Assembly: GCF_003482105.1 (NCBI RefSeq) | Contig: NZ_QULM01000003.1 | Coordinates: 186,432-250,431, forward strand | Direction: 5' to 3' | Length of the DNA stretch: 64,000 nt | Source of the DNA: Coprococcus sp. OM04-5BH | Lineage (GTDB): Bacteria; Bacillota; Clostridia; Lachnospirales; Lachnospiraceae | In this document: piece after piece, positions 3,540-59,272 of the stretch | Layout of the letters: each line of letters starts with the position of its first letter | Numbering within the stretch: position 1 is the stretch's first letter | Made by a program: the position numbers and the translations under genes | Notes under the pieces: generated by a model | Databases searched by the model: none | What the model was told of the DNA's origin: nothing | What the model saw: the letters and a program-made list of their open reading frames with translations, nothing else

Positions 3540-4916
3540 TTACTGTAACAATTCGCTGATATGTCTTGCCACATAAACTCCGCTGGCTGAGGCATGGGAA
3601 AGAGAGTGAGTTACACCGCTGCCATCACCTATGATGTACATTCCCTTATATTTACATTCGAGGTATTGATTAAGCTCTACTTCCATATTATAGAACTTGA
3701 CCTCTACACCATAGAGGAGAGTGTCGTCATTTGCAGTTCCCGGAGCAATCTTGTCAAGGGCGTAGATCATCTCCATGATACCGTCCAGTATTCTCTTAGG
3801 AAGTACAAGACTTAAGTCTCCCGGGGTTGCGGAAAGGGTAGGAGTTACAAGACCTTCCCTGATCCTGCTTTCAGTACTTCTACGACCTCTTACCAGGTCG
3901 CCGAAACGCTGGACTATTACGCCGCCGCCTAACATATTTGACAGTCTGGCTATACTTTCTCCATAGCCGTTGCTGTCCTTAAATGGCTCTGAGAAATGCT
4001 TTGAAACCAGAAGAGCAAAGTTGGTGTTCTCTGTCTGCATTTCCTCATCCTCGTAGCTATGACCGTTTACTGTAACGATCCCGTTGGTATTTTCATTTAC
4101 CACTATACCATGTGGGTTCATACAGAAGGTGCGGACATTGTCTTCGAATTGTTGTGTGCGGTATACGATCTTGCTTTCATATAATTCGTCGGTGAGATGT
4201 GAGAATATAACTGCCGGAAGTTCAACCCGGACACCTATATCCACACGGTTGGACCTGGTTGGTATATCAAGGGTATGACATACCTGCTCCATCCATTTGC
4301 TGCCGCTTCTTCCAACGGAGACTATGCAGTTCTTGCAACTGTAGTCACCAGCATCTGTGTGTATTACATAGCCATCATCAGGATGTCCGATGGATGTGAC
4401 CGGAGTGTTGAAATAGAAGTCTGCCTTATCCTCAAGATATTCATACAGGTTCTTAAGTACGATGTAATTAACATCTGTTCCAAGATGTCTCACGGAAGCG
4501 TCAAGAAGCTTCAGCTTGTTCTGCATACATATCTTTTTGAATTTCGTTCCTGCAGTAGAGTAGAGCTTTGTTCCTTCACCGCCATATTCCATGTTGATGT
4601 CATCAACATACTTCATAAGGTTTATGGCCTGTTTTTTTCCGATATATTCGTAGAGGGTACCTCCGAAGTCATTAGTGATGTTGTATTTTCCATCTGAAAA
4701 TGCACCTGCACCACCAAATCCACTCATGATGGAACAGCTCTTACAATGGATACAGCTCTTTATCCTGTCACCGTCAATAGGACATTTTCTTCCGGATAAA
4801 CGGTTTCCTGACTCGAATACACCAATGGTAAGCTCAGGCTGTTTCTTGACCAGCTCATAGGTTGCAAATATTCCTCCCGGGCCTGCGCCAATTACTATAA
4901 CGTCGTAATGCTTCAT
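3540..4916 (-). CDS. NAD(P)/FAD-dependent oxidoreductase (COG2509-like)
   Basis: Predicted flavoprotein dehydrogenase of unknown substrate. Residues about 6-14 hold the dinucleotide-binding signature GAGPGG. A cysteine cluster near residues 44-62 (CPIDG..CIHCKSC) precedes GFGGAGAFSDGK, an arrangement typical of the COG2509 group, and the C-terminus carries the second FAD contact GDGSGVTHS. The ATG at 4916 follows a perfect AGGAGG at 6-9 bp; upstream in-frame codons are ignored. The product is 458 residues. It is downstream of and co-oriented with the leuA fusion, but a terminator between them suggests separate transcription. The physiological role is unknown. Confidence 0.85.
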   Translation of the reverse strand: MKHYDVIVIGAGPGGIFATYELVKKQPELTIGVFESGNRLSGRKCPIDGDRIKSCIHCKSCSIMSGFGGAGAFSDGKYNITNDFGGTLYEYIGKKQAINLMKYVDDINMEYGGEGTKLYSTAGTKFKKICMQNKLKLLDASVRHLGTDVNYIVLKNLYEYLEDKADFYFNTPVTSIGHPDDGYVIHTDAGDYSCKNCIVSVGRSGSKWMEQVCHTLDIPTRSNRVDIGVRVELPAVIFSHLTDELYESKIVYRTQQFEDNVRTFCMNPHGIVVNENTNGIVTVNGHSYEDEEMQTENTNFALLVSKHFSEPFKDSNGYGESIARLSNMLGGGVIVQRFGDLVRGRRSTESRIREGLVTPTLSATPGDLSLVLPKRILDGIMEMIYALDKIAPGTANDDTLLYGVEVKFYNMEVELNQYLECKYKGMYIIGDGSGVTHSLSHASASGVYVARHISELLQ

Positions 4917-4943
4917 CTGTGTTCCTCCTTGATAAAAAATCAT

Positions 4944-5007
4944 AAAAAAACTACCGCAAGATACAATATACCTATAATTGAATTATAGATAACTATTTGC
5001 GGTAGTT
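4944..5007 (-). terminator. Terminator after the leuA fusion (minus strand)
   Basis: Ten-base arms ACTACCGCAA (4950-4959) and TTGCGGTAGT (4997-5006) form a hairpin followed on the minus strand by a run of T. It separates the leuA fusion from the FAD gene. Confidence 0.8.
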
Positions 5008-5084
5008 AGTAGAAACATTCATCCGTATTATGAACTTATATAATCCTTATTCATGATAGCAGAATAAAGGCTATAAATCAATAT

Positions 5085-7076
5085 TTATTTGCCGGTGGCA
5101 CGGTATTGTACCGGTGCCATGCCGTATACTTTCTTGAAGGAGCGGGAGAAGTGCTCCACGTTGGCGTAGCCTATGCTTTCTGCTATGCTTTCAATGGTCA
5201 TACTGGTGGTCTTAAGCAGTGTCTTTGCTTTCTTCATCCTTACCTGTCTTACATAATCACCAAATGTTACCTGTGCCTTTTCTTTGAAGTACTTGGACAC
5301 ATAAGGCACTGAGAGATTAACCTTCGTGGCCATATCCTCAAGAGTAACTGTCTGATAGTTGGTCTGTATGTAGTTCTTCATGGTTATGAGCCTTTCGTCG
5401 GCCTTGGCAGTGATTTCTGAAAGCACCGGAAGCTTGTTTACAGCACATACAAGGGCATTAATGGAGGATTTTATTATATCGTCATCGATACCTACACCCC
5501 AGTAAAGCTTTTCGTTGTAGGTGATACCTACAAATGACATTGCCTTTGAAGAAGAACCGGTGGTTAAGGCGTGCTCCTCGTATACACTTAACTCGTAGCT
5601 TATCTCAAAGAACTGCTTTATGGTGTTGGATACCGCGTCAAGACGGCCGTTTCCGTTTGCCTCTATCTTATTTATATGGTTGTCGTAGGCTATGGAGGCT
5701 TCTGCCATGATACCGTTTATCTGCTTGAAGTGGCATTCCGGTATCTGGAAGCGGGTATGGGTTGACACATAATTATCTATAAGTATGTCATATATCAGGT
5801 CAGGTGAAAGCTCCTTGTGAGCCTCGTCAGATACATGCTTTACCAGGTATCCGAATTCCTCACGCATCTTATCCGGAAGGGTTATTCCGTAGTTCTGCTT
5901 AAGTATGTAGTTGACGCCGCCCTTTCCTGACTGGCTGTTGATTCTTATTACATCAGATTCGTAGGCACGTCCCACATCCTTTGGATCTATAGGAAGATAT
6001 GGCACTGACCATTTGTGCAGGTGCTTCTCCTTGCGCCATGTCATTCCCTTTGATATAGCGTCCTGGTGGGAGCCGGAGAATGCGGTAAATACCAGATCGC
6101 CTGAGTAAGGAGTTCTTTCATGCACATGCATTCTGGTGAGACGCTCATAGCAAGTACGGATCTCGGACATATTGGAGAAGTCAAGCTGTGGATCGACGCC
6201 CTGGGAGAACATGTTCATGGCGAGGGCTACTATATCAACATTGCCGGTACGCTCACCGTTGCCGAAAAGAGTACCCTCTATTCTGTCTGCACCGGCCAGA
6301 AGTCCCATCTCTGCGTCGCTTATGCCGCAGCCTCTGTCGTTATGAGGATGAAGGCTTAAGGTTACGGCGTCCCTGTTGTGGAGGTTCTTGCTTAAGTATT
6401 CCACTTGTGTTGCAAATACATGCGGCATTGCTATCTGTACGGTGGTAGGGATATTGATTATAACCTTATTTGAAGGTTTAGGCTCCCATACATCTATAAC
6501 TGCGTTACATACCTCAAGGGCATAGTCAACCTCGGTTCCCGGGAAGCTCTCAGGGCTGTACTCAAAGGAGAAGTTGCCGTCTGTTTCATCAGCAAGACGC
6601 TTTAAAAGCTTTGCTCCGTCTACGGCAATCTTCTTGATCTCTTCCTTGTCTTTCTTGAATACCTGCTCCCTCTGGGCAACAGAGGTGGAGTTGTAGAGAT
6701 GAATCACAGCATGGCCTGCGCCTTTAACGGCCTCGAAGGTTTTCTTTATTATGTGTTCTCTTGCCTGGGTAAGTACCTGTATGGTCACATCCTCGGGGAT
6801 CATATTATTGTCTATAAGTGCTCTTATGAAGTTGTACTCTGTTTCGGATGCGGCAGGGAAGCCTACCTCGATCTCCTTGAAGCCTATGTCCACCAACATC
6901 TTGAAGAATTCCAGCTTCTCCTCAAGGCTCATAGGCTCAATAAGTGCCTGGTTGCCATCCCTTAAATCTACGCTGCACCATATAGGTGCCTTGTCTACAT
7001 GATCCTTCTTCACCCAGTCGTATGTACATACAGGTGGCATAAAATATGCTCTTTCGTATTTATCGTAGCCTTTCAT
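5085..7076 (-). CDS. leuA: 2-isopropylmalate synthase fused to AraC-type DNA-binding domain
   Basis: First enzyme of leucine synthesis: condenses 2-oxoisovalerate with acetyl-CoA. Start ATG 7076 follows AGGAGG by 6 bp; the product is 663 residues. Residues about 31-330 form the catalytic TIM barrel of the yeast-type LeuA group (SVDLRDGNQAL; HPHNDRGCGI with metal-binding histidines; GNGERTGN). Residues about 430-560 match the leucine-sensing LeuA regulatory domain. The last 98 residues (566-663, bases about 5088-5381) are not LeuA: they form a two-helix-turn-helix AraC/XylS domain, with LEDMATKVNLSVPYVSKYFK and then SIAESIGYANVEHFSRSFKK and the GMAPVQYR ending. The frame is open throughout with no stop or internal start signal. 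The fused domain suggests leucine-dependent DNA binding (inference). Ordinary members of this group end near the regulatory domain. Confidence 0.93.
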   Translation of the reverse strand: MKGYDKYERAYFMPPVCTYDWVKKDHVDKAPIWCSVDLRDGNQALIEPMSLEEKLEFFKMLVDIGFKEIEVGFPAASETEYNFIRALIDNNMIPEDVTIQVLTQAREHIIKKTFEAVKGAGHAVIHLYNSTSVAQREQVFKKDKEEIKKIAVDGAKLLKRLADETDGNFSFEYSPESFPGTEVDYALEVCNAVIDVWEPKPSNKVIINIPTTVQIAMPHVFATQVEYLSKNLHNRDAVTLSLHPHNDRGCGISDAEMGLLAGADRIEGTLFGNGERTGNVDIVALAMNMFSQGVDPQLDFSNMSEIRTCYERLTRMHVHERTPYSGDLVFTAFSGSHQDAISKGMTWRKEKHLHKWSVPYLPIDPKDVGRAYESDVIRINSQSGKGGVNYILKQNYGITLPDKMREEFGYLVKHVSDEAHKELSPDLIYDILIDNYVSTHTRFQIPECHFKQINGIMAEASIAYDNHINKIEANGNGRLDAVSNTIKQFFEISYELSVYEEHALTTGSSSKAMSFVGITYNEKLYWGVGIDDDIIKSSINALVCAVNKLPVLSEITAKADERLITMKNYIQTNYQTVTLEDMATKVNLSVPYVSKYFKEKAQVTFGDYVRQVRMKKAKTLLKTTSMTIESIAESIGYANVEHFSRSFKKVYGMAPVQYRATGK

Positions 7077-7447
7077 AACGTACCTCCTATAACAGAACAT
7101 CGGTCCATTAAGATTTTGCATGTGGTAGCACTATTCTAAATGTGTCTTCGACACTTAGTACTTCTTTTGACAAAAAATATCAACCGTTTTGATGTTTGTT
7201 ATGATAACACACAAAAAATGACATTTGAATGATTAAATTTAATCAATCTACATGATTAATATTAATATCTGCGGCGTAGAATGTAATATGGGGGTAGCTT
7301 TTGGTCATATGCTGTGAGTGTGTGTCGCAACTTGCGTCTTAAAGCATATTCCCAATTAATATGGGCAAATATATAATAATTTATGCGAGACATGTAAGGT
7401 TACTCCAGGTGCCTTTACAGTATATAAAAGTTGATTTGGAGGTAGAT
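7077..7447. promoter_or_regulatory. Divergent leuA / spo0A intergenic region
   Basis: About 370 bp without a gene. It holds two perfect AT-rich palindromes, GATTAAATTTAATC (7231-7244) and ATTAATATTAAT (7255-7266), and a small inverted repeat with GTGTC/GACAC arms near 7145-7160, between them and the leuA ribosome site. A TATAAT at 7372-7377 with TTCCCA 17 bp upstream could drive the spo0A pair. The palindromes are plausible regulator sites for the divergent genes, possibly for the AraC domain of the adjacent LeuA, but no site consensus was available to test this. Confidence 0.45.
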
Positions 7448-8239
7448 ATGAGCAGGGTTAAGGTGCTTATAGCAAAGCGGGACAAAAGAGAAGCGGAACA
7501 GCTAAGCACTGCGTTAAAGGATACAGGTAATTGTGAGATAACAGGAATGTGTCATGAGGGCGATGAGGTGGCAGGCAGGGTAAGTGCCAGAACACCGGAC
7601 GTTATAGTGACAGATGAAATGCTGGGAGATAAGAGCCTCATAGATATAGTTGAGGATATAAAGAACAGAACAGGAGTGGACAACCTTAAGTTTATGGTAA
7701 TGGCAGATGTGGGTCATGAGAAATATCTGGAGTTTCTCTGCAGGGCACTGGAAAACTGCGCGGTGCTTAAGGTGTTCAACAAGGACGGAGATCCGGAGCT
7801 GTTAAAGAAAGAGATAGTTTCATTTGCAAGGAGCAGCAAGAATGTTCCCTATGGAAGTGGGACTACCATACCGGATGAAGGAGAATTGATGGGTATAATA
7901 ACCGGCATAATACACGAACTTGGAGTTCCGGCTCATATTAAAGGATATCAATATCTGAGAAGTGCCATACTTATGGCAGTGGAGGACATGGACATTCTTA
8001 ATTCCATAACAAAACAGTTATACCCCGGTATAGCCAAGGTTTACAACACTACGCCTTCAAGGGTGGAGCGTGCTATAAGACATGCCATAGAGGTTGCATT
8101 CGGAAGAGGAAAATTAGATACGATAAATGAAATGTTCGGTTATACCATAAGTGCAGGAAAGGGAAAACCGACAAATAGTGAATTTATTGCACTGATCGCA
8201 GACAAAATTAGACTTGACAACAGACGTAAGACGGCATAA
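7448..8239 (+). CDS. Spo0A-like response regulator with degenerate receiver (paralogue 1)
   Basis: Response regulator of the Spo0A family, 263 residues from the ATG at 7448 (TGGAGG 5 bp upstream; the earlier in-frame ATG at 7361 has no ribosome site). The C-terminal half is a well-conserved Spo0A DNA-binding domain ([40 protein letters not shown]). The receiver is eroded: the acidic pair that binds magnesium is replaced (IAKRDKR where IADDN is usual), the LKP loop reads LKV, and the switch threonine is missing, although the phosphoacceptor-position Asp in VTDEM remains. Phosphorylation is therefore doubtful. It is followed 106 bp later by a second Spo0A gene. It may bind the same 0A boxes independently of the phosphorelay (inference). 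Confidence 0.88.
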
Positions 8240-8345
8240 TATATTACTATGATATCAAAAACAATATCATATGCAAACACACAACAGCATACTATATAAT
8301 ATGAGCGTTATAGTGTGCACCAGGGTAGAAAAGGGGAATAAGAAC

Positions 8346-9161
8346 ATGAATGAAAAGGGAAACGTGATGAAAGTAGTAATTGCAGACAGTAACTGTCTGT
8401 CCATAGCAGAGGATCTTGCACGTTCGGGGGACGAAAGAATTGAGATTGTGGAATGTGTAAAAGACGGAAACCGTGCGTTGGCTGCTATCAAAAGACATCA
8501 GCCTGAGGTAGTTATAATTGATATCTGTCTTGCGGGTATTGATGGCCTTGGAGTTATTGAACAGCTTAAGGCAGAAAATCAGATGGAGAATACAGTGTTT
8601 ATTGTATTATCATCCTTGTATTCACAGAAGCTGATCAATTGTGCATTCGAGCTTGGTGCTACATATTACATGAGAAAGCCATATAAGCCGGAGATACTGG
8701 CAAGGCGTATTACGCAGATGTATAATCTTAAGCTGAGAAAAGATACTGACTCTCATGGAGAGCTTATCTGTATGGGCAATGATCTGAAGATACCGGATGG
8801 TATTCCTGATCTCATGGCAGAGGTTACAGAGATCATCAGAGATATAGGTATCCCTGCCAATATAAAAGGATACCAGTATATAAGAGAGGGCATTATAATG
8901 TGTGTAAATGACAGTAATAATCTCAATTACATCACAAAGCTTCTGTATCCTTCCATTGCAAAGAAATACAATACTACATCATCTTCTGTTGAGAGAGCTA
9001 TAAGACATGCCATAGAGGTGGCATTTGCAAGGGGACAGATAGATACAATAAATGACATGTTCGGATATACGGTCAATGCCTTTAAGGGCAAGCCGACTAA
9101 CTCGGAGTTTATAGCCATGATAGCGGACAAGCTCAGGATCAAGTATAAGAAGAGAGCATAA
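8346..9161 (+). CDS. spo0A: Sporulation master regulator Spo0A (paralogue 2)
   Basis: Second Spo0A-family regulator, 271 residues from ATG 8346 or 264 from ATG 8367; both have purine-rich upstream sequence and the choice is uncertain. The receiver is closer to canonical than that of its neighbour: IADSN keeps one of the two acidic pocket residues, [11 protein letters not shown] carries the phosphoacceptor Asp, and MRKPY keeps the Lys-Pro switch. The C-terminal domain ([44 protein letters not shown]) is intact. This copy is the better candidate for the functional Spo0A, controlling sporulation or stationary-phase genes through 0A boxes. The two genes are probably a local duplication followed by divergence. 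Confidence 0.92.
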
Positions 9162-59138: not shown

Positions 59139-59180
59139 AACAGACGTTGTGCAGACGGATTCTTAAATTAATATAGACCA

Positions 59181-59272
59181 GGGAATGAGGCACTCCCTTG
59201 ACAAGATTTGTCTAAACCGCCCGAAATGGCTGATGGCTTCTGCATTTTATGTAGAAGCTGTCGGCTATTTTT
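59181..59272 (+). promoter_or_regulatory. Fluoride riboswitch (crcB motif) with intrinsic terminator
   Basis: Aptamer parts in order: GGGA-ATGAGGC-AC-TCCC (P1 and loop), a small extra hairpin GACAA/TTGTC, TAAACCGCC, GGCTGATGGCTTCT. This follows the known fluoride aptamer order (GATGAGGC, AAAC.GCC, GGGCTGATGGCCTCT). GAGGC (59187-59191) can pair with GCTTC (59236-59240) as the pseudoknot. The 3' strand (59228-59244) also pairs with TGTAGAAGCTGTCGGCT (59250-59266) ahead of TTTTT, so ligand binding would block termination, the usual ON-switch. Confidence 0.8.

Follow-up and report, generated by a model that had tools for sequence, protein, structure and literature searches.

PMC8249747 names PutA, BirA and NadR as trigger enzymes and describes PutA as acting on its own gene region, with a single target found there, and PMC6978683 describes PutA and BirA as moonlighting enzymes. 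The protein described here resembles these three in joining an enzyme and a DNA-binding regulator in one chain, and it resembles PutA in that its predicted site likewise lies upstream of its own gene, leuA. It differs from them in that the enzyme, LeuA, stands for a committed biosynthetic step and carries an end-product allosteric domain, and in that its DNA-binding domain is of the AraC/XylS type. AraC/XylS regulators usually have a cupin or receiver domain as their ligand-sensing part. The fused protein shares with such regulators (AraC, SoxS, YesN-type) a complete double helix-turn-helix (HTH) and a predicted operator beside the -35 position, whereas its sensor part would be an entire enzyme, allosteric domain included. 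The LeuA of Mycobacterium tuberculosis has the same catalytic, post-catalytic and LeuA_dimer domains but ends after the allosteric domain, where the fused protein adds about 100 residues of AraC HTH. In searches of open-access papers, we found no description of a LeuA-AraC fusion protein. On the best reading of the sequence data, the fused LeuA would be a new type of trigger enzyme, one that regulates its own gene, within a class that is itself known.

The fused gene and its distribution

In the window, the 64,000-nucleotide stretch of Coprococcus sp. OM04-5BH that was analysed, the leuA-araC gene occupies 5085..7076 on the minus strand and encodes 663 amino acids plus a stop (5085-5087) in one uninterrupted frame. 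Its start at 7076 is conserved, and a ribosome-binding site, AGGAGG, is found at 7083..7088 on the same strand. Specifically, the protein contains an HMGL-like catalytic barrel (residues 31-307, 6156..6986, minus strand, Pfam 2.2e-74), an IPMS_D2 post-catalytic domain with the GSHQDA motif (residues 327-393, 5898..6098, minus strand, Pfam 2.7e-34), a LeuA_dimer allosteric domain (residues 423-549, 5430..5810, minus strand, Pfam 1.4e-22) and an AraC/XylS double HTH (residues 562-660, 5097..5393, minus strand). The last comprises HTH_18 at residues 582-660 (Pfam 3.8e-22; 78.8 bits against a cut-off of 33.6) and HTH_AraC at residues 621-659 (Pfam; 55.6 bits against a cut-off of 26.6). The three LeuA domains all exceed their curated cut-offs, and the whole protein scores 803.6 bits against the PRK03739 subfamily, whose cut-off is 455. 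The open frame and the Pfam domains agree with the earlier note, which had claimed a complete LeuA continuing in frame into a complete AraC/XylS double HTH. Its boundaries needed one correction, since the conserved AraC part begins near residue 562 and not at 566; the linker at about residues 550-562 is variable.

The LeuA part (residues 26-548) aligns to M. tuberculosis LeuA (1sr9 and the leucine-bound 3fig) with an E value of 1e-153. The RDGNQ, HPHND and GSHQDA motifs, which we take to be the catalytic motifs, are unbroken in the alignment to 1sr9 and invariant in 42 aligned proteins (the window protein and 41 of the 120 listed homologues). The GNG-L, YE-HA and GVGI stretches of the LeuA_dimer domain, which presumably include leucine-contact residues, are common to the fused protein and leucine-bound 3fig, a likeness that would fit a putative feedback inhibition of the fused LeuA by leucine. 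Because the allosteric domain adjoins the HTH directly, leucine is also the favoured signal for the putative regulator. Alternatively, the substrates (2-ketoisovalerate, acetyl-CoA) or the isopropylmalate product could be the signal, sensed by the catalytic domain. We regard this as unlikely: the catalytic domain is intact, and PutA represses when its substrate proline is absent according to PMC8249747, but it is the LeuA_dimer domain, with the stretches common to 3fig, that the HTH adjoins.

By sequence, the nearest solved relatives of the C-terminal part are the AraC-type domains of a two-component response regulator (6swi) and of YesN (3lsg), and SoxS and AraC are further solved relatives. 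A structure model of the fused protein reached a mean pLDDT of 75 and a pTM of 0.51, with the HTH modelled confidently (pLDDT 78-89 per ten-residue block, residues 561-660) and low confidence at residues 321-348 and 355-386 and in the domain arrangement, so that its inter-domain geometry supports no claim. A Foldseek search with the model returned M. tuberculosis LeuA as the top match (TM 0.45 by query length).

All of the 120 listed homologues, out of 7985 scored, carry the same five Pfam domains. In named genome contigs, a full-length open fusion was found in 73/80 loci, a sample that is biased to fused genes because it consists of the best 80 of 347 relatives. Five loci end after LeuA and have no HTH (L072, L074, L075, L076 and L080), and two have the HTH in another frame directly after LeuA (L073 and L079). 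Of 397 genomes from the Lachnospiraceae, the family to which Roseburia porci belongs, 363 contain a LeuA match with E <=1e-50. A full open fusion was counted, match by match, in 89 among the matches listed; the list extends down to about E 1e-248, past the weakest fusion seen. In a class-level set of 391 genomes, overlapping in part with the first, 66 had a match among those listed at E <1e-230, of which 13 are full fusions and 53 end by residue 569. Isolates with the fused locus include Roseburia porci, [Ruminococcus] torques ATCC 27756, Eubacterium uniforme ATCC 35992 and Mediterraneibacter massiliensis. The earlier note had proposed looking for HTH_18/HTH_AraC domains on LeuA homologues and mapping their taxonomic range, and had named confinement to one assembly, together with disappearance on resequencing, as one outcome that would speak against its claim. 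The fusion instead recurs in isolates and MAGs alike, and we therefore rejected an assembly artefact as its source.

Two observations were made along the way. A frameshift in the short linker of L073, L079 (the same gene as L205) and L192 leaves LeuA whole and the HTH out of frame, with the operator retained; the regulator may have been lost naturally, the assembly may be in error, or frameshifting may occur. In addition, L011, from a record titled Muribaculaceae, has a Lachnospiraceae-like leuA-araC locus, and its title is probably wrong.

The predicted operator and the promoter layout

Reading the upstream regions, we saw that fused genes are preceded by a block like ATCAAtnnAAnTGATTAAATTTAATCATT and unfused ones by T-box leaders. 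Thirty such sites align over 36 bp without gaps. In the window, the predicted operator, hereafter O1, is AATATTAATCATGTAGATTGATTAAATTTAATCATT (36 bp, 7228..7263, minus strand), upstream of leuA. A conserved RNA structure was considered for this element and rejected, since the position of O1, ahead of the -10 box, speaks against it and an Rfam search of the window gave no family at O1.

The extended -10 box TGTTATCAT lies at 7201..7209 on the minus strand (TG at 7209-7208, TATCAT at 7206-7201), 18 bp after O1. Of the fused representatives that have both an open frame and an operator, 139 in all, 134 show a TGnTAnnnT box 12-24 bp after O1, and the spacing is exactly 17 or 18 bp in 129. No -35 consensus was found between O1 and the -10 box among these 139 relatives; O1 occupies the place of the -35 box, and with the first base of the -10 hexamer set at -12 it ends near -34. 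That is the usual location of AraC-family activators in contact with RNA polymerase, and a site at -35 with an extended -10 box and no -35 consensus is the usual layout of an activator-dependent promoter. This placement of O1, at -35 and ahead of an extended -10 box, makes self-activation the favoured mode of action, and this suggested activation is a further difference from PutA, BirA and NadR.

Downstream of the -10 box, a second copy of the operator exceeds the 99th percentile of shuffles in 79/130 relatives, and in 52 of these 79 it stands 73-74 bp from O1. Since it commonly falls ahead of the start codon, after the -10 box, the protein could instead bind O1 to repress leuA, and substrate or leucine would then either lift or reinforce the repression. 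PutA, a known trigger enzyme, is a repressor (PMC8249747). We nevertheless find a PutA-like repressor doubtful, as O1 ends beside the -35 position with no -35 consensus and with the extended -10 box at 17-18 bp in 129/139 representatives, and the leuA promoter of the window has no significant second copy (score -1.0). Under self-activation, which we prefer, the second copy in many relatives could serve repression or looping.

As a separate observation, the best operator match of L052 and L053 lies about 960 bp upstream of leuA. Because it precedes a gene that by eye is alpha/beta hydrolase-like and that in turn precedes leuA, the two genes may share one promoter.

Gains and losses of the HTH and the operator

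With a weight matrix built from the 30 O1 sites, we scanned as much as 1.2 kb of sequence before each leuA gene; the threshold, 4.93 bits, was the 99.5th percentile of mononucleotide shuffles. L149 and L201, which contig ends truncate, were left out, the other 209 were thinned to 189 representatives, and the frameshifted L073, L079 and L192 were counted as HTH-bearing. The operator was found in 142/148 HTH-bearing and 3/41 HTH-less representatives. Six HTH-bearing representatives had no detectable operator (L069, L170, L184, L185, L189 and L196), and three HTH-less ones passed the threshold (L210, L225 and L240). Once the rows used to build the matrix were excluded, the operator was present in 113 of the 119 remaining HTH-bearing rows. 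At 10 bits, 136 HTH-bearing representatives had the operator and 12 did not, against 1 and 40 of the HTH-less ones; at 15 bits, the corresponding counts were 130 and 18 against 0 and 41. The Fisher test of this association (p 6e-30) ignores kinship and is not to be relied on.

Kinship was taken into account with a tree built on the LeuA domain alone, on which the HTH state needs 8 changes, 6 of them forced by well-supported branches. In six independent pairs, the operator changed in the same direction as the HTH in 5.8 on average and in the opposite direction in 0.0 (200 random pairings; 4.93 bits), and the sign test at this first threshold gave a median p of 0.031. The stricter thresholds gave same-direction averages of 5.4 and 5.2 and a median p of 0.0625, because with six pairs one tie abolishes significance; opposite-direction pairs were absent at all three thresholds. 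These comparisons suggest that the operator and the HTH have switched together about six times independently, with the test at its limit.

We also compared synonymous and nonsynonymous changes in 746 pairs of fused genes whose proteins are 86-97% identical, the pairs being mutually non-independent. The HTH had the lowest pN/pS of the four regions compared (0.043), followed by residues 1-400 (0.068), the allosteric domain (0.087) and the linker (0.24). A ratio of only 0.043 indicates that the HTH is maintained and not decaying, and a dead HTH was therefore rejected. The HTH might still be a structural or oligomerisation appendage while another AraC-family protein uses the operator, and the frameshifts that would detach it in three genomes (L073, L079 and L192) are in keeping with this idea. 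However, the operator comes and goes with the HTH in about six independent changes, none of the 15 unfused genomes searched had an O1 match at E <0.01 (best 0.0101; E <0.1 in 5/15), and the HTH pN/pS is the lowest among the compared regions, all of which make an appendage very improbable. Covariation between the recognition helix (residue 590, K versus E and others; residue 610) and the operator arm was tried as a further line of evidence. The association is strong in the 123 rows with a classifiable arm, but it was dropped because the arm type changes only 2 times on the tree and is confounded by clade, which explains the association.

T-boxes are RNA-level controls that sense uncharged tRNA. 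Like the putative autoregulation of the fused gene, they control many close leuA relatives, here the unfused ones; unlike it, they act at the RNA level, and most fused genes are without a T-box motif. The motif is present in 30/41 unfused representatives and absent in 130/148 fused ones. Of the 18 fused genes that do have it, 17 have the operator upstream of the T-box, which indicates that the two controls stack. Rfam confirms the T-box in the unfused L072, L074 and L080 and in the fused L005, L054, L056 and L064, where the operator lies upstream of it.

Other elements were seen in the window. A purine riboswitch (RF00167, 60.7 bits) lies at 4966-5063 on the minus strand, between leuA and the downstream gene for an FAD-dependent protein (3540-4943), and a fluoride riboswitch (RF01734, 39.4 bits) at 59172-59249 on the plus strand. 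Two tandem Spo0A-like genes (7361-8239 and 8271-9161, plus strand; Spo0A_C 148.7 and 143.1 bits) are divergent from leuA, and the receiver domain of the first falls under the Pfam cut-off.

Reach of the predicted operator and possible meaning of the fusion

Whole genomes were searched for O1 with a sequence-only model that scored 150 first-look candidates per genome, so that weak sites may escape. The best genome-wide match lay upstream of leuA in 32/32 fused genomes, with E <0.01 in 31. In the first 12 fused genomes, the leuA promoter was the best match in all 12 (E 1e-7 to 9e-4), and the next match had an E value of 0.014 or worse; in all 20 further ones, the best match was likewise no more than about 1 kb upstream of leuA. 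The leuA site of G395 is weak (E 0.086). Outside leuA, the 20 further genomes gave two matches at E <1e-3: that in G352 precedes leuB, and that in G059 is unexplained. G021 has a non-leuA match at E 1e-3 to 0.01 near no recognised leucine gene. We inspected extra operator-model matches at two sets of 15 and 9 loci with one in common, and most were at or inside unrelated genes. A 19.0-bit operator-like site at 1490-1525 of L093 (G010) stands about 45 bp ahead of a gene that by eye encodes a CstA-like transporter, and a 30.4-bit one at 1497-1532 of L329 (G059) runs into a G/C-rich inverted repeat, with no obvious leucine gene downstream.

In 1.5 kb scans of 12 fused genomes, no operator was found upstream of leuC (13), ilvC (12) or ilvD (12), that is, in 0/37. 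Upstream of leuB, the operator reached at least 10 bits in 2/30 fused genomes (G352, 23.0; G029, 15.2) and in 0/15 unfused ones, and G294 scored 6.3 bits. In 2/6 genomes inspected, a divergent gene that by eye is LysR-type stands before leuC, which suggests that leuC is separately controlled. A leucine regulon spanning the leu/ilv genes was therefore rejected, given 0/37 at leuC, ilvC and ilvD and leuB in only a few lineages. The earlier note had supposed transcriptional control of leuA or other leu/ilv genes, and the leuA half of this has fared well while the other half mostly has not (0/37; leuB 2/30). The fused LeuA probably controls its own production at the leuA promoter; autoregulation there is very probable, given the strong purifying selection on the HTH and the co-occurrence of the HTH with a specific promoter element.

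Sequence comparison establishes that the fusion exists and is conserved, and that the element has a constant spacing, accompanies the HTH and is almost confined to leuA. Taken jointly, the best explanation, and a rather likely one, is a bifunctional LeuA that would bind O1 and activate its own gene, with leucine weakening or reversing the activation. The C-terminal AraC-type domain would bind the predicted operator at its own promoter, and the bound protein would most likely activate transcription through contact with RNA polymerase. Leucine on the allosteric domain would most likely weaken or reverse this self-activation, so that a single leucine-binding event may set both the activity and the amount of the enzyme. 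A more specific proposal, to which we give somewhat less than an even chance, is that the allosteric domain serves as the AraC-type sensor, that one leucine event stops catalysis and ends self-activation (or brings repression through the second operator), and that this device has repeatedly replaced or joined the T-box in Lachnospiraceae. The predicted 36-bp operator makes autoregulation directly testable, and the fused protein could serve as a ready-made leucine sensor.

In textbook accounts of leucine synthesis, feedback inhibition and transcriptional control use separate devices. Of the sampled genomes of Lachnospiraceae, a family of major gut commensals, about one in five (89/397, among the matches listed) would seem to unite both leucine controls in one polypeptide. 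The repeated paired gain or loss of the HTH and the operator would offer a natural experiment in how an allosteric enzyme becomes a transcription factor.
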